A stretch of 25,124 nt of DNA from a virus. Shown here piece after piece: positions 281 through 25,124 of this stretch. Every line of letters starts with the position of its first letter. Positions within the stretch are counted from its first letter, which is position 1. The stretch spans positions 1-25,124 of IMG/VR virus record IMGVR_UViG_3300011116_000565; one strand, 5' to 3'. A program made the position numbers and the translations under genes. Below the pieces are notes generated by a model, which made no database searches, had not been told where the DNA came from, and saw nothing but the letters and a program-made list of their open reading frames with translations.

Positions 281-709
281 TTATTCCCGCCGCATAACGT
301 GCGAATAATCCGATTTAATATAGTCAATGGGGGCGGGGTTCGTATAGTGTCTGAATATCCCCGTTCGCTCTAATCCCGTTTTTACCCCGTGGCATTCGGC
401 GCATAGGCTTTGATATAGGTTATGCCTGAATGATTCGCCGCCTATAACGCGCCACGGGAATACATGGTCAACGTGCGCGGCGGGGGTTATGCGCCCCGTT
501 AATTTGCAAGCCATACAAAGCGGTTCGGTTGACAATACCCGCGCCCGTATACCCGCCCACAATGCCCCCTTATATTCACGGTTAGATTCTAGGCGGGCGG
601 CGGTTTGCTTAGGTTTGCCCCCGTGGTTTTCACAATATGCCGAACCCTGAACCCGTGCATTCTTACATTGTAGGGATTCACATTTCGTGGTTTTTGGTAT
701 CGTGGGCAT
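281..709 (-). CDS. HNH endonuclease
   Basis: A 142-residue HNH nuclease, expected to nick or cut DNA with a metal held in a beta-beta-alpha fold. The core shows C65-x2-C68, the HVDH block at 79-82, N97 and C103-x2-C106-H107, so both zinc-knuckle cysteine pairs and the catalytic histidine are present. The first 30 residues hold an extra C/H cluster (C10, C15, C26, H29) that may bind a second zinc. Phage proteins of this form are often encoded beside the terminase genes and help packaging, but no terminase is in the window, so that role is only possible. It is the only clear - strand gene in the left composition segment. Its start overlaps a LexA-box-like palindrome. Confidence 0.88.
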   Translation of the reverse strand: MPTIPKTTKCESLQCKNARVQGSAYCENHGGKPKQTAARLESNREYKGALWAGIRARVLSTEPLCMACKLTGRITPAAHVDHVFPWRVIGGESFRHNLYQSLCAECHGVKTGLERTGIFRHYTNPAPIDYIKSDYSHVMRRE

Positions 710-2905: not shown

Positions 2906-3166
2906 ATGAAAAACCGCAAACCGCAAAAACCGCACGAAATGACGGGCGAAATAATCGAAGCTTATGACCAGTTAACCCGCGCATGGGGGTTGATTCGCAT
3001 GGGCCATTCCGCATTATCGGGGGATTGTTTTCCCCCCGAATGGTCAATTATTGAATTATTTTCGGCGGTTGATCAATTACTAGGCGAATCAGGCTTAGTT
3101 ATCGCTGAATTTATTGACGGCGAAATGATAAAAACGGGGGCAAATGATGCAAAAAACCCCGATTAA
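2906..3166 (+). CDS. Hypothetical protein, helical
   Basis: An 86-residue protein beginning ATG 2906, eight bases after an AAGGGG site. It has a basic N-terminus (MKNRKPQKPHE), then mostly helical sequence with acidic residues and an amphipathic segment around I-I-E-L-F-S-A-V-D-Q-L-L. No conserved motif is recognised. It overlaps the next gene by 23 bases. Codon choice is that of the left segment. Confidence 0.6.
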   Translation: MKNRKPQKPHEMTGEIIEAYDQLTRAWGLIRMGHSALSGDCFPPEWSIIELFSAVDQLLGESGLVIAEFIDGEMIKTGANDAKNPD

Positions 3167-4962: not shown

Positions 4963-5292
4963 TCATTCCTCTTGTTTTGGAATCGGCAAATCAGGAACAA
5001 CCAAGTTTCTGTCAAGCAATTCTAACCATGTATTGCGAAAAGCGTTCCACCACATGGCTTGTTTTTGCTCTTTTGTCATCAAATGTCCAGCGTCCAAAGC
5101 TTGATGGCATTCAAAGCACAAAGCAACGGTGAACTCGTCCGATGCCTTAATGCTCCTGCCTTTGCCGTGGATTGCCATGTTGCTGTGCGCCGCCTGAGTG
5201 AATCCCTCAATGCCACAATTCTGGCATGGCAGGGATGCCACGTTCTTCAGGTGCTGTTTGTTGCGCCAGTACTTGAATTTGGGGTAACTCAT
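4963..5292 (-). CDS. HNH/YbcO-like recombination nuclease
   Basis: A 109-residue protein with C-Q-N-C, then A-A-H-S-N, G-K-G-R-S-I-K-A-S-D, and C-F-E-C-H-Q-A-L-D. The arrangement (zinc pair, histidine in an AH motif, K-G-x-x-x-K-x-x-D, second CxxC-H) is that of small HNH-fold proteins of the lambda nin region type (YbcO/DUF1364, Ref-like), which act in phage recombination. It follows a conserved phage gene with a four-base overlap and sits near NinB and a VRR-NUC gene, which supports a recombination role. It does not look like a homing enzyme: no duplicated neighbour sequence is seen. Confidence 0.75.
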   Translation of the reverse strand: MSYPKFKYWRNKQHLKNVASLPCQNCGIEGFTQAAHSNMAIHGKGRSIKASDEFTVALCFECHQALDAGHLMTKEQKQAMWWNAFRNTWLELLDRNLVVPDLPIPKQEE

Positions 5293-6613: not shown

Positions 6614-6765
6614 TTGCGATCAGCCCTTTCGATGTGGCCTTGGAACTCCATGTATTGCAGGACTTTGGTCAGGCGTATGCCCTCCCATCCCGTGATCTCT
6701 TTGAGTTCTTTGTGAGAATGCGGCTCAAAACTCAGCAACATTCGGATTGCGTGTGCTCTTGTCAT
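6463..6765 (-). CDS. Winged-helix DNA-binding protein
   Basis: A 100-residue frame. Residues 1-60 form a winged-helix pattern: M-T-R-A-H-A-I-R-M-L-L, then H-K-E-L-K-E-I-T-G-W as helix 2, a recognition helix R-L-T-K-V-L-Q-Y-M, and a wing ending W-N-L-T-L-K-G. Proteins with this start are common beside DNA modification or replication genes in phages and probably regulate transcription. The last 40 residues share DNA with the DUF7696-like gene and may be non-native. It overlaps the methyltransferase stop by four bases. Confidence 0.7.
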   Translation of the reverse strand: MTRAHAIRMLLSFEPHSHKELKEITGWEGIRLTKVLQYMEFQGHIERADRKWNLTLKGFESLKRVTGTEDLNKRFESLVEARQFIGGMQSLLTSSESAVV

Positions 6766-7721
6766 GTGATGTCCTTACTTAAAATTTTCCAAGCAGTTGC
6801 GGCGCACAATGGGACTTGTCCATTTCCAATGGCTTTAATTCTGTCCACCCTAGCGGCCACCCCATCAGCCACTCGCAGAATGTTGGGTTCAACTGACCAC
6901 CATTTGCTGTTGTCGCCGCCGTAGCTTCTGGCAAATTCGGACTGAACCCCCTTTTTGCCGCTTTGCTCATTGCATCCGGGCTTGTTGCACCTTTGTAATC
7001 TGTTGCTCTCGGAGTCGGCCAAACTTTCACAACTCCCCTCAAATAACCTTTCTGTAGGTCGTGTGGAATTCCATTCTTGTCTGGTTTCATATTCGCACCT
7101 TTCCCATCGCTTGCATTTGGCGTTGGAAACATCTGTCGTTTCTTTAATGCTTTCCTGCTGTTGCTCCCACCGTCTAATCCTGTTGTGTTGGGCGTGTGGA
7201 AGCTGTCCACGCCATTTGGCGACAATCCAAATCCTGTCCCTTTGATGGTTTGCACCAACGTCTTTTGCTCCCAACACTCCCCACCGCGCATCAAACCCCA
7301 TGCTGGCCAAGTCTCCAAGAACTCGTCCAAGTCCCCTGCTAGTGAGCATTGGTGAGTTTTCCACGAAGACGTAGCCGGGTCGTACTTCACAAATGACCCG
7401 CGCCATTTCTCGCCACATTCCAGAGGCTTCTCCATCAATTCCTGCGCCTTTTCCTGCGGCACTGATGTCGGTACATGGAAAGCCGCCAGATACAACGTCA
7501 ACAATTCCTGCCCACGGTTTTCCATCAAAGGTTTGTACGTCATCCCAAATCGGGAAAGGCGGGAAAATGCCGTCATTTTGTCTGGCGCACAGTACGCTTG
7601 CTGGATAGGCTTCCCATTCAACGGCGCAGATTGTTCGCCATCCAAGGAGTTTTCCCCCAAGTATTCCTCCACCCGCCCCGGCAAAGAGAGCGAGTTCATT
7701 AAGGCTTGACTGATTAACCAT
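6762..7721 (-). CDS. DNA (cytosine-5) methyltransferase
   Basis: A complete 319-residue C5 cytosine methyltransferase. Motif I is F-A-G-A-G-G-G (13-19), the catalytic Pro-Cys is in G-G-F-P-C-T-D-I-S (C83), motif VI is E-N-S (121-123), motif VIII is Q-R-D-R (160-163), and the GNGQVP block near residue 300 is motif X. The segment between about 170 and 280 is the target-recognition region. The product would methylate cytosine in phage or host DNA, most simply to escape restriction. The start at 7721 lies inside the last codons of an HNH gene. A recoded copy of its residues 7-16 (LNELALFAGA) lies upstream of that HNH gene, so the 5' end has been rebuilt. Nearly all of this gene also encodes a second protein. 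Confidence 0.93.
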   Translation of the reverse strand: MVNQSSLNELALFAGAGGGILGGKLLGWRTICAVEWEAYPASVLCARQNDGIFPPFPIWDDVQTFDGKPWAGIVDVVSGGFPCTDISAAGKGAGIDGEASGMWREMARVICEVRPGYVFVENSPMLTSRGLGRVLGDLASMGFDARWGVLGAKDVGANHQRDRIWIVAKWRGQLPHAQHNRIRRWEQQQESIKETTDVSNAKCKRWERCEYETRQEWNSTRPTERLFEGSCESLADSESNRLQRCNKPGCNEQSGKKGVQSEFARSYGGDNSKWWSVEPNILRVADGVAARVDRIKAIGNGQVPLCAATAWKILSKDIT

Positions 7722-7726
7722 GACAT
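6779..7726 (-). CDS. Overlapping long frame inside the methyltransferase gene
   Basis: A 315-residue frame on the same strand, covering 6779-7726 in a different phase from the methyltransferase. It is not random-looking: it has D-K-M-T-A-F-S-R-L-S-R-F-G-M-T, W-R-G-S-F-V-K-Y-D-P, L-E-T-W-P-A-W-G-L-M-R-G-G-E-C-W, three P-T-P/H-T-P blocks spaced along the middle, and an end L-N-P-T-F-C-E-W-L-M-G-W-P-L-G-W-T. I recognise this order from a well-populated but functionally unassigned phage protein family. The P-T-P blocks fall where the methyltransferase frame reads N-A/A-D/H-A-x motifs, so the two repeat patterns are the same DNA read twice. Its ATG (7726) is five bases before the methyltransferase ATG. 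No function is known. Confidence 0.7.
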   Translation of the reverse strand: MSWLISQALMNSLSLPGRVEEYLGENSLDGEQSAPLNGKPIQQAYCAPDKMTAFSRLSRFGMTYKPLMENRGQELLTLYLAAFHVPTSVPQEKAQELMEKPLECGEKWRGSFVKYDPATSSWKTHQCSLAGDLDEFLETWPAWGLMRGGECWEQKTLVQTIKGTGFGLSPNGVDSFHTPNTTGLDGGSNSRKALKKRQMFPTPNASDGKGANMKPDKNGIPHDLQKGYLRGVVKVWPTPRATDYKGATSPDAMSKAAKRGFSPNLPEATAATTANGGQLNPTFCEWLMGWPLGWTELKPLEMDKSHCAPQLLGKF

Positions 7727-8205
7727 TCCAAATACCTTTTTAAGTTTGTAAAAAGTTCTTTGTTATCTTGACAAAGACCCAAAACAGTATTGCAACGATT
7801 GCAAAGAATTCCTCTTACTTTTCCAGTTGTATGACAATGGTCAACATGAGGGGTAGTTTGCTTATTACCCCATTCAAATTGCCGTTTACAACAAACACAA
7901 GCATTACTTTGTGTTTTCAACTGTTCATCAAACCAAGTTATTTCAACTCCATATTTCCTTACAAGTTCTTGTCGATAGTTCTTTTTTCGATTGTCAATGC
8001 GATATTTCTTTACAGCATCAATATTTTGTTGCCTCCATTCCTTGACCTTGGCTGTTGCTTTTTCTTTGTTGTGCTCATACCAATCTTTCGCCATTTTTCG
8101 TTCGCAAACCTTGCAAGCCGAATGATGCGAATTTGCGTTTGTTCGTTGGTAAAAATTTGACAACGGCAATTTATCTTTGCACTTACTGCATTGTTTTATT
8201 TCCAT
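7714..8205 (-). CDS. HNH endonuclease (endonuclease VII type), inserted before the methyltransferase
   Basis: A 163-residue nuclease. Residues 1-60 hold a zinc finger (C6-x2-C9, C31-x2-C34) followed by a basic helix; residues 100-160 hold the recombination endonuclease VII/HNH core: C103-x2-C106, H-V-D-H-C-H (120-125), G-K-V-R-G-I-L-C-N-R-C-N (128-139). Such free-standing genes behave as homing endonucleases. The start has AAGGAAG seven bases upstream and overlaps the stop of a short reading frame that encodes LNELALFAGA, the same ten residues found near the start of the methyltransferase. Its stop overlaps both start codons of the methyltransferase locus. The insertion therefore appears to sit near codon 10 of an older methyltransferase gene. 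A promoter-like sequence lies at 8230-8258. Confidence 0.88.
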   Translation of the reverse strand: MEIKQCSKCKDKLPLSNFYQRTNANSHHSACKVCERKMAKDWYEHNKEKATAKVKEWRQQNIDAVKKYRIDNRKKNYRQELVRKYGVEITWFDEQLKTQSNACVCCKRQFEWGNKQTTPHVDHCHTTGKVRGILCNRCNTVLGLCQDNKELFTNLKRYLECHG

Positions 8206-9422: not shown

Positions 9423-9997
9423 TCCAAGATGTCATACAATTACCAAGAGGAGGTAATTTATGAAATGTTCTTCATGTGGTCAAGATGCGGTAATAAAACA
9501 GGGAAATCAAAATCTTTGTGAGAAGCATTACAGGATTGGGCAAATGCGTCAAAGCGCAAGGCGAAACAACAAAATTGTTCCAACAAAAGAAGAGATTGAA
9601 GGCTTGCTAAACAAAAAAATGCAATGCCTAGATTGCGGAACAACGATGAATTGGAGGTCAAAAGATGGTCGTGAAACTGTTGCAAGTCTTCAGCATTACA
9701 GAGATGGAACGCTTGGTGTTGTTTGCCTTTCGTGCAATACCAGACATGCATCAATGCCTGATGACACGTATCGGGACATGCCCAAGGATTACAAATTTTG
9801 CCCGTCATGCAAAACGCAAAAACATCAATCTATGTTTTCACTTGACAACAGCCGATCTGGTCGCATGAGAATAAAAAGTTATTGCAAAACATGCAGTGAT
9901 AAAAAAACAAAACAATGGAAGGAATCAAACCGTGATAACTACAACGAATACCAAAGACAGTACAGAGCCAAAAGAAAAACAAATTCAATTGCCAGTT
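9408..9997 (+). repeat. Short direct repeat flanking the HNH insertion
   Basis: CCAGTT occurs at 9408-9413 and 9992-9997, each inside ATT-N-CCAGTT and each in the same reading phase of the split gene. Joining the two copies would restore an uninterrupted 59-residue frame. Confidence 0.5.
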
Positions 9998-9999
9998 AG
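9460..9999 (+). CDS. HNH homing-type endonuclease interrupting a small gene
   Basis: A 179-residue protein with an excellent ribosome-binding site (AGGAGGT, seven bases before ATG). It has an N-terminal C3-x2-C6 with C20/H23, a central HNH-like block C56-x2-C59, S-L-Q-H-Y (77-81) and C89-x2-C92-N93, and a C-terminal zinc finger C114-x2-C117, C142-x2-C145 followed by a basic helix. That last module resembles the N-terminal finger of the 7714-8205 nuclease, placed at the opposite end. The gene lies between the two parts of a small phage gene, about 12 codons in, and its 3' end overlaps the replacement start of that gene. It leaves too little non-coding sequence for a self-splicing intron. Confidence 0.82.
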   Translation: MKCSSCGQDAVIKQGNQNLCEKHYRIGQMRQSARRNNKIVPTKEEIEGLLNKKMQCLDCGTTMNWRSKDGRETVASLQHYRDGTLGVVCLSCNTRHASMPDDTYRDMPKDYKFCPSCKTQKHQSMFSLDNSRSGRMRIKSYCKTCSDKKTKQWKESNRDNYNEYQRQYRAKRKTNSIAS

Positions 10000-23424: not shown

Positions 23425-24105
23425 TTACAAGACCACTTCATAAGCGTTGAATGTGCCATCCCATTGAATAAATGAATCATTGGTCATTGGAATAAGCGAA
23501 TAGGTCGGATAATCGCGCAGGACAACGGGGAAAGTGATGCCCGTATAGGTTGACCCGCCCAAGCTCGTTGTTGTGCCGTATTGACCGATTACAGCAGGAC
23601 TTTGAGCCGATACAGTGGTCATGATGGTGCGGTGAACAGGAATGGTCACAGTGGATGCGCCGCCGCGCTGAACATCAGCCGTGGCAATGTAAGCATAGCG
23701 ATCAATTTGAATAAAGTCGCCTGTCTTGACAATGTACAAAGTCGATGTGATTGCTGGTAATGTGCCAAGAATAATGTTTTTGCCTGTCGTTCCAACTTCA
23801 ATTGTTGTTGCGTTTGCTTGAACGCTGGACATATCGCCTTGATATTTAATGTAGTTAAGCCAGCCAGTTGTGCCAAAGTTGATGTATTGCTCTGTAATTC
23901 TGTCAGCCGTGCGAAGTGCAGACAACACCGACCGATTGGTGCTGTACTGCAAATAATTCATTGGCTTAATAGTGAATTGAAATGGCTGAACAGTAAGAAT
24001 CTCCGATGTGCTAATTCGCATATTGCGTGACAACATCTGACCAGCAAATTTTTTATCATTTATGGACACAGATTCAGCAATAGCCAAAATACTTTGGAGG
24101 CTCAT
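23425..24105 (-). CDS. Putative tail protein with rebuilt 5' end
   Basis: A 226-residue beta-rich virion-type protein beginning M-S-L-Q-S-I-L-A-I-A-E-S-V-S-I-N-D-K-K-F-A-G-Q. The middle has T-V-Q-P-F-Q-F-T-I-K-P and later repeats of short threonine/valine strands. Its ATG is in ATGA overlap with the GIY-YIG gene, whose own first 11 residues, M-S-L-Q-T-I-L-S-I-A-E, are nearly the same. The first codons therefore exist twice, with different synonymous choices. The gene lies between tail genes on the same strand, so a tail-tip or baseplate role is likely. Confidence 0.68.
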   Translation of the reverse strand: MSLQSILAIAESVSINDKKFAGQMLSRNMRISTSEILTVQPFQFTIKPMNYLQYSTNRSVLSALRTADRITEQYINFGTTGWLNYIKYQGDMSSVQANATTIEVGTTGKNIILGTLPAITSTLYIVKTGDFIQIDRYAYIATADVQRGGASTVTIPVHRTIMTTVSAQSPAVIGQYGTTTSLGGSTYTGITFPVVLRDYPTYSLIPMTNDSFIQWDGTFNAYEVVL

Positions 24106-24725
24106 AATATTTCAATCCCATGTTTTACAAGTTGATTGTTTTTTCTCCAATATTTGAAAGTGCTTAATTTAATTTGTTCTTGTTGGCACATTGCTCTTAT
24201 TGTTGGGTAAATTATGCCATTGCACTTAATTGCAACAGCTTCATGATTGTTTGCGCCTTTAAGATAATCTCTATTTGCCGCTGACATTTTTGCTCTTACT
24301 TCTGGTCTTTGAGCAACCTTTAACTGCAACATTTTTTGCTTGCGTATTTCCAAAAGTTCAGGTGTATATGAATTTAGCAATCCAATTCTTTGATTTGTTT
24401 TAGTTTCTTCAGTATGTTTCCAACCAGTTATACCACCACCACCAAAACAAGCATTTGTTAAATTTCCATAATTTGACAATATTGAAATAGCAAATTTTTC
24501 AGAATTTAATGCTTGCATTTCTGTTAAATTATCTTGCATGATTTTTACATCATAACCATGTTTATCTGCAATTGCTTTCCAATATTTATTTCTACCTTGT
24601 TTTGTATAAGCTCGTTTACCGCATCCTTTGCCAACATAAAAAGGTTTATTGGTGTCTTTGCGTAAATGCAAATACACATAAAATTTTTTATCTTCAGCGA
24701 TTGACAAAATGGTTTGCAAACTCAT
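24102..24725 (-). CDS. GIY-YIG homing-type endonuclease fused to a tail-gene start
   Basis: A 207-residue endonuclease. The GIY-YIG core has F-Y-V-Y-L-H (15-20) and F-Y-V-G-K-G (29-34), R38 and a catalytic-type E76; the C-terminus (A-I-K-C-N-G-I-I-Y-P-T-I-R-A-M-C, then T-F-K-Y-W-R) matches the NUMOD-type DNA-binding segment of SegA-like enzymes. Its first 11 residues are not part of the nuclease but copy the start of the tail gene that follows. D-K-K-F also occurs in both proteins. The endonuclease thus seems to use the tail gene's original start, while the tail gene restarts after it. Confidence 0.88.
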   Translation of the reverse strand: MSLQTILSIAEDKKFYVYLHLRKDTNKPFYVGKGCGKRAYTKQGRNKYWKAIADKHGYDVKIMQDNLTEMQALNSEKFAISILSNYGNLTNACFGGGGITGWKHTEETKTNQRIGLLNSYTPELLEIRKQKMLQLKVAQRPEVRAKMSAANRDYLKGANNHEAVAIKCNGIIYPTIRAMCQQEQIKLSTFKYWRKNNQLVKHGIEIL

Positions 24726-24734
24726 GATGTTGCC

Positions 24735-25124
24735 TTAATAAGATGGATACCATTTGGCAGTGCCTTGGTTGTACGTCAATATCAAAGCCTTGTTAACAAC
24801 TGCGACTGAGGCCAAAGCAATATTACCCGTTGTTGTGGTGGTGAACAAACCAGTAGGAATCAAAGTGATTTGACCGCCTGTCAGTGAAATGGGCGTAGGT
24901 GGTGTGATGGTAGCAATTGCAGTTGTGCCTGAGACAAAAGCAATTGTAGTTGTCGGCGCAATCGTTGTCGCACTTGCAATCGTTGGCGCGGTTTGTCCAG
25001 TTGATTGCAAACCTTGAAACACCAAGTTTGCACCTGATACGTTTATTGCCGCATCATAGTAAGCAAAGTTTGCATCCAGATTTGCCAGTGGAATCGGTGA
25101 CGTTGCTGAAGCAAATGTATTTGG
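24735..25124 (-). CDS. Virion structural protein, 5' end beyond the window
   Basis: The reading frame is open to the right edge, giving the last 129 residues of a larger protein (P-N-T-F-A-S-A-T-S-P-I-P-L-A-N-L-D-A-N-F-A-Y-Y onward). I-P-L-A-N-L-D-x-N-F is a common motif in phage tail/fibre proteins. The end A-T-I-T-P-P-T-P-I-S-L-T-G-G, I-P-T-G-L-F-T-T-T-T-T-G-N-I-A and G-T-A-K-W-Y-P-S-Y matches a C-terminal beta domain found in many virion proteins. Its stop lies nine bases before the GIY-YIG gene start. Confidence 0.75.
   Translation of the reverse strand, partial: PNTFASATSPIPLANLDANFAYYDAAINVSGANLVFQGLQSTGQTAPTIASATTIAPTTTIAFVSGTTAIATITPPTPISLTGGQITLIPTGLFTTTTTGNIALASVAVVNKALILTYNQGTAKWYPSY

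Follow-up and report, generated by a model that had tools for sequence, protein, structure and literature searches.

The GIY-YIG endonuclease gene described here is very probably, to judge from its sequence context, a free-standing homing element that has inserted in the first codons of a phage distal tail (Dit) gene and has installed a replacement for the 5′ end of that gene. The tail gene survives the insertion because the element brings its own 5′-end replacement. The same architecture is present in several unrelated phages, which suggests a natural ‘cut and repair with recoded copy’ element. The locus was analyzed in the IMG/VR virus record IMGVR_UViG_3300011116_000565, positions 1 to 25,124, and this whole stretch of 25,124 nucleotides is referred to as the window. 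Features of the locus are collected in Table 1. The endonuclease ORF begins MSLQTILSIAEDKKFYVYLH and has a G+C content of 31%, against 45% for the tail gene, which begins MSLQSILAIAESVSINDKKFAGQM. The left flank of the element in the window is background shared with relatives that lack the element (empty relatives L002-L007), and an AAGG-like site is also present in the empty relatives of the same background. The overlap of the endonuclease stop with the new tail-gene start suggests a possible translational coupling of the tail gene.

Table 1. Features of the tail-gene locus, with positions in the window
Feature	Position	Strand	Remark
C-terminal part of the upstream phage gene, ending WYPSY-stop	24735..25124	-	left flank of element
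AAGG, probable native ribosome-binding site of tail gene, now used by endonuclease	24733..24736	-	sequence reading
Displaced native tail-gene start, codons 1-11 (MSLQTILSIAE), now the endonuclease N-terminus	24693..24725	-	
GIY-YIG endonuclease ORF, 207 aa, in-frame fusion to native start	24102..24725	-	phrog_314
GIY-YIG catalytic domain	24435..24683	-	conserved residues in alignment
Helix-turn-helix-like C-terminal segment TIRAMCQQEQIKLSTFKYWRK	24138..24209	-	weak NCBIfam match, model helices
12-mer GATAAAAAATTT, endonuclease copy	24681..24692	-	
12-mer GATAAAAAATTT, tail-gene copy; encodes carrier-only H18K	24046..24057	-	native: GAC CAY AAA TTT
ATGA, endonuclease stop overlapping new tail-gene start	24102..24105	-	
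Carried, recoded tail-gene codons 1-18	24052..24105	-	comparison with L021 and empty relatives
Target gene, Dit-like distal tail protein, 226 aa	23425..24105	-	codons 19-226 are native background

The endonuclease was matched to the PHROG homing endonuclease family phrog_314 (1.2e-14), and its profile to solved GIY-YIG enzymes (1.4e-6). Residues Y18, Y30, G32, R38, E76 and N91 were invariant among 7 aligned relatives, and the protein has the core with catalytic Tyr, Arg, Glu and Asn that defines the GIY-YIG superfamily. The endonuclease sequence by itself had no match among solved structures, a Pfam search gave no GIY-YIG model (NUMOD3 was under its cut-off), and a search of genome contigs gave no relative. 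The C-terminal segment was weakly matched to the NCBIfam model of IS66 TnpA (E 6e-4, under the cut-off of the model); it is helix-turn-helix-like and likely binds DNA. The structure model of the nuclease was poor (pLDDT 50) and usable for strand and helix order only. Between the window and the copy in locus L021 the dN/dS of the endonuclease was ∼0.14 (0.075/0.53), so the protein is maintained by purifying selection. In Methylophilaceae phage P19250A the family of the tail protein lies beside tape-measure and tail genes, and the tail-protein model (53 relatives, pLDDT 73) was matched to T5 pb9, the distal tail protein Dit (Foldseek best E 6e-7).

Further nuclease genes are present in the window, encoding an HNH endonuclease (281-709, minus strand), a DUF968/HNH protein (4963-5292, minus strand) and an endonuclease VII family protein (7714-8205, minus strand), together with an Endo VII/HNH-like ORF with weak matches (9460-9999, plus strand). 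At 6762-7726 on the minus strand two long same-strand ORFs overlap by ∼940 nt in different frames. One is a C-5 cytosine methylase (Pfam 8.7e-30) and the other a 315-aa ORF matching phrog_1008 (1.1e-32), a different PHROG labelled DNA methyltransferase; they are a possible dual-coding pair.

On the minus strand the endonuclease begins MSLQTILSIAE followed by DKKF and the tail protein begins MSLQSILAIAE, as had been recorded in a first-pass annotation made from the letters of the window; the spacer before DKKF in the tail protein, given there as seven residues, is five (SVSIN). The start-anchored comparison gave 8 matching residues beyond Met for this pair. As a null, GIY-YIG N-termini were compared with gene starts beside other, unrelated GIY-YIG genes, and 0 of 2,498 mismatched pairs reached 6 residues, the highest being 5. 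The two 33-nt starts are identical at only 25/33 positions as DNA, so the protein likeness exceeds the DNA likeness. The annotation had proposed that the endonuclease was inserted at the tail-gene start, which was then rebuilt. This agrees with the present analysis: the endonuclease is fused in frame to the start, of which it uses the ribosome-binding site and start codon, and the tail-gene start is rebuilt downstream of it. The direction of copying had been read the wrong way round, since it is the endonuclease that has the original start and the tail gene that has the copy. The same 11-residue start on GIY-YIG proteins in unrelated places had been named as an observation that would speak against insertion; no other GIY-YIG protein in the loci surveyed carries it, and several instead share their first or last residues with the gene next to them. 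That the nuclease gained the expression timing of the tail gene through the fusion, as also suggested there, is plausible.

The 12-mer GATAAAAAATTT is identical in both genes, again as first annotated, and lies in frame in each. The match of DKKF and the 12-mer is mostly of separate origin, a GIY-YIG N-terminus having met a near-matching motif of the tail gene. The native motif of the tail gene at this site is D-H/Q/R-K/R-F, and free-standing GIY-YIG proteins such as L083 likewise start MEDKKFYVY (L083 was retrieved with an EDKKFYVY pattern and is hence a biased example). A TAAAAARTTT motif is common to the endonuclease and tail copies, located in the window at the two 12-mers of Table 1 and in L021 at 2413-2425 and 3048-3060, with A changed to G in both L021 copies. 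Recombination between the two copies of this motif would give an in-frame tail gene lacking five residues.

The native start was identified by comparison with 153 relatives from IMG/VR. A plain tail gene with no GIY-YIG gene nearby was found in 151 of these, and the only carriers of the element were L001, which is near-identical to the window, and L021. Both have a second, upstream copy of the start fused to a GIY-YIG ORF. The L021 element is 85% identical to that of the window and lies in a different background behind a different upstream gene. The first 33 nt of the L021 endonuclease are identical at 31/33 positions to the tail-gene starts of its own empty relatives L016/L023/L058; the first 33 nt of the L021 tail gene match those relatives at 23/33 and the tail gene of the window at 31/33. 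Over 18 codons the replacement starts of L021 and the window are identical at 50/54 nt (93%), and within each of these two carriers the upstream and downstream copies match at 25/33 nt. The question posed in the first-pass annotation, whether first codons of homologues resemble the upstream copy, was thus answered positively, clearly for L021 and more weakly for the window (26-28/33 for the upstream copy, 25-27/33 for the downstream copy), where the displaced start is less close to the sampled relatives than that of L021. The TCA codon of S8 and an ATC codon in the window endonuclease are those of the same-background empties.

As the first codons match the carriers' own empty relatives upstream and each other downstream, the start of the endonuclease is the displaced native start. 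By the same comparison, the present first 18 codons of the tail gene are a foreign, recoded block that travels with the nuclease. Lys18 of the tail protein was present in 2/2 carriers and 0/151 empties, which have His, Gln or Arg there. A search for the donor lineage of the 18-codon copy found none, the nearest native sequence being 78-80% identical, and the recoding could come from a divergent donor rather than from selection for resistance. Two starts encoding nearly the same peptide would also result if a single nuclease insertion had been accompanied by a local tandem duplication that kept the tail start and drifted later. We consider this very unlikely, since the downstream copies match each other (31/33; 50/54) far better than they match their own upstream copies (25/33 each) or their background. 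The upstream copies go with the phage background in which each lies. Such a match across carriers cannot arise from independent duplications, so the copy travels with the nuclease.

The boundaries of the element were located against empty relatives. The right edge of the recoded block is sharp and lies at codon 18/19; between the window and L003, in 18-nt steps, identity rises from ∼0.56 to 1.00 at codon 19. On the left, native sequence in the window continues up to codon 11 (GAA), and in L021 it probably extends into codon 12 (AGC to AGT). The first bases of the shared element are AAA AAR TTT TAT. The element thus delimited consists of endonuclease codons ∼12 to the stop together with the 18 recoded tail codons, and is positioned behind native codon 11 or 12. 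Identity over tail codons 1-18 between the carriers and their own background was 63-70%, against a minimum of 72% in 94 pairs of empties of comparable body identity.

Between the window and L021, dS was 1.25 in tail codons 41-226 but 0.53 in endonuclease codons 13-207 and 0.50 in tail codons 1-18 (approximate Fisher p 2e-4 for the contrast). Between the window and L001 there were zero differences in the endonuclease and tail codons 1-18, with a dS of 0.17 in the tail body (p 4e-7). The element occurs in two phage lineages with different left flanks, that is, in two independent carriers. With two carriers, 151 empties and movement between lineages, it has the optional distribution of a free-standing homing endonuclease gene. 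The tail bodies of the window and L021 are homologous, and phage modules are exchanged often, so vertical inheritance was also considered, in which the element goes back to an ancestor of both carriers, with loss in most relatives and later exchange of the flanking genes. This history is improbable in view of the 151/153 relatives that are empty, keep native H/Q/R18 and bear no scar, of an element dS less than half that of the tail body, and of displaced starts that match the empties of each carrier's own background.

For the homing element that we favour, we infer the following cycle. Translation of the endonuclease would begin at the start site of the tail gene, and the enzyme would cut the intact tail-gene start of element-free phages in the same cell, probably around codons 11-19. 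Repair from the element-bearing genome would then copy in the nuclease and the replacement start. The replacement is predicted to escape cutting because it is recoded (many synonymous changes and H18K), and the recoding should also make the two copies less prone to recombine. Translation of the tail gene would begin at the new ATG, possibly coupled through the ATGA overlap. The same features can be read in terms of expression, the fusion serving mainly for late expression of the nuclease and the recoding only blocking deletion between the repeats. The nuclease is indeed served by the native ribosome-binding site and start, and the recoding cuts homology between the copies, but this reading, which we judge unlikely, leaves the C-terminal mirror cases described below and the movement between lineages unaccounted for.

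Group I introns often harbour GIY-YIG nucleases, and a further rival reading places the nuclease inside a mobile intron or an intein. The window region gave no Rfam match even at E≤1, five related loci gave none at the gathering threshold, and the ORFs abut directly. No splicing is needed, as the nuclease ORF is closed by a stop of its own and the tail gene opens with a separate start. An intein was excluded, the nuclease ORF ending in TGA at the new tail-gene ATG, and an explanation of this class is extremely unlikely as a whole.

Other GIY-YIG loci were surveyed for the same architecture as the free-standing element. The sample comprised 80 distant GIY-YIG loci and others from isolates (∼98 in total), was collected by similarity to the window nuclease and is not random. 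Each endonuclease end was compared with the matching end of the neighbouring gene, anchored on start or stop codons, with mismatched pairs as the null, and the discovery family was excluded from the counts. Nine loci of the 98, with seven target genes, had the arrangement (∼0.2 expected for the N-type). N-terminal duplications were found at L208, L243, L245, L209/L219 and L420, with scores of at least 4, a value reached by 4/2,498 null pairs. C-terminal duplications, the mirror arrangement at the 3′ end, were found at L176/L179 and L195 with scores of 10-14; the null maximum was 6 in 2,493 pairs. The C-terminal similarities at L226 and L171 were within the chance range and were rejected. L208, L243 and L179 were compared with empty relatives, and L245, L209/L219 and L195 are candidates from the survey score.

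At each of L243, L208 and L179, which are independent cases, the native gene end is displaced and a carried copy is in place. The L243 endonuclease starts ATG GCG ACC AGC GGC ACA TAC, matching empties such as L330, and upstream L243 shares 183/200 nt with the empty locus L329. The tail-adaptor gene of L243 differs from that of L329 at 15 of codons 1-19 (12 synonymous) and at 0/41 of codons 20-60. The L208 endonuclease begins MSSTYTVTRD, which is the commonest native start (26/80), and the gene behind it begins MSSVFSVTRD; natives were nearer the copy of the endonuclease in 58 cases and nearer that of the gene in none. In the L179 mirror case the last 42 nt of the endonuclease are the end of the endolysin gene of empty L248 (42/42). 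The same downstream gene as in L248 follows the endonuclease, and the endolysin end is now spelled differently. In mirror cases of this type the nuclease opens with an ATG of its own and has the native 3′ end of its neighbour as its terminus. For L195 the C-terminus of the isolate homologue was too divergent for assigning the native copy.

A cultured phage, Pseudomonas phage vB_PF_Y1-MI (L420), has a short case of six codons in which the endonuclease begins MAIGQK, the gene MAISQK and the nearest relatives MAIGQK. Its nuclease is preceded by ATAGGAGAAATAAC-ATG (1424-1443) and its tail chaperone by ATAGGAGATAAATAG-ATG (2009-2028), and the duplication seems to take in the ribosome-binding site. 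Apart from this case the arrangement was absent in the further isolates checked, as it was in Curvibacter P26059A, Proteus ZX7, Rhizobium Y1_10 and Sinorhizobium AP-16-3. At L209/L219 a GIY-YIG gene starting MATNIQT directly precedes a collagen-like fibre gene starting VSTNIQIPNLPAAIALSG, which looks like the same arrangement. A GIY-YIG motif lies upstream of the target-family gene at L336, L341, L372, L386 and L443 without an equally obvious duplication of the start; these are possibly further elements or older remnants.

Free-standing homing genes of phages are usually pictured between genes or splitting them. The present arrangement shows how a homing gene can lodge within the coding sequence of an essential late gene and leave it unharmed. 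We lean towards the view that tailed phages harbour recurrent, unrecognised free-standing GIY-YIG elements that swap the 5′ or 3′ ends of essential virion and lysis genes for recoded, cleavage-resistant copies and so act as natural ‘recoded rescue’ homing drives. Their targets would be Dit, tail adaptors, a fibre-like gene, a tail chaperone, a baseplate gene and an endolysin. The arrangement parallels synthetic homing drives of the recoded-rescue design. It would account for foreign stretches at the ends of phage genes. Such elements can be sought in sequence data by their duplicated gene ends with differing spelling, and the recoded block predicts the cleavage region of each nuclease. The L243/L329 and L179/L248 loci are near ‘before and after’ pairs, so a direct test of cleavage and resistance is feasible.

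A literature search for a phage case with a carried replacement end found none, which, the search being of open-licence papers, is weak evidence of absence. For the Seg and Mob proteins of T4-like phages, a review describes free-standing GIY-YIG or HNH nucleases that home without an intron, transposition-like gene insertions, and ATG/stop overlaps that suggest translational coupling (PMC2988022). The insertions into genes described there split them (nrdA of Aeh1, gene 60 of T4 and gene 43 of phage 25), and a recoded replacement end is not described for these (PMC2988022).

The closest likenesses are in fungi. In the WHO elements of Torulaspora and Lachancea a homing endonuclease gene is linked to a fragment of FBA1, the gene that is cut (Coughlan et al., 2020, PMC7282813). 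Through homing, one end of FBA1 is exchanged and the gene becomes resistant, and displaced fragments stay alongside (PMC7282813). The window element is similar in that the nuclease gene is linked to an end of its target gene and the displaced native end is retained. It differs in that WHO proteins are HO/VDE-related (LAGLIDADG), a family to which the GIY-YIG nuclease does not belong, in that WHO elements form clusters in yeast nuclei and replace ∼400 bp of the 3′ end whereas the window element replaces 54 bp of the 5′ end, and in that here the nuclease is an in-frame fusion with the displaced native end. In the mitochondria of Tremella fuciformis, an N-terminal homologue of the host gene is part of the elements inserted in cox1, nad3, nad4, nad5 and cob, and exchange of foreign gene fragments has been proposed (PMC7315562). 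The order of native N-terminus, element, second N-terminus and gene body is like that of the window (PMC7315562), but the Tremella elements are mitochondrial, are described as introns and have larger duplicated fragments, whereas the phage element leaves a fused remnant of 33 nt. Mobile ORFs of Glomus and Allomyces mitochondria place an endonuclease ORF beside a foreign, diverged copy of the end of the interrupted gene, and, as in the window, the native copy resembles close relatives and the inserted copy does not (PMC3630166). These are C-terminal, unlike the window and like L179/L195, are mostly LAGLIDADG and occur in fungal mitochondria. We read the gene-end-replacing design as one already known in yeast WHO elements and fungal mitochondria, and the phage elements as a new, recurrent form of it.
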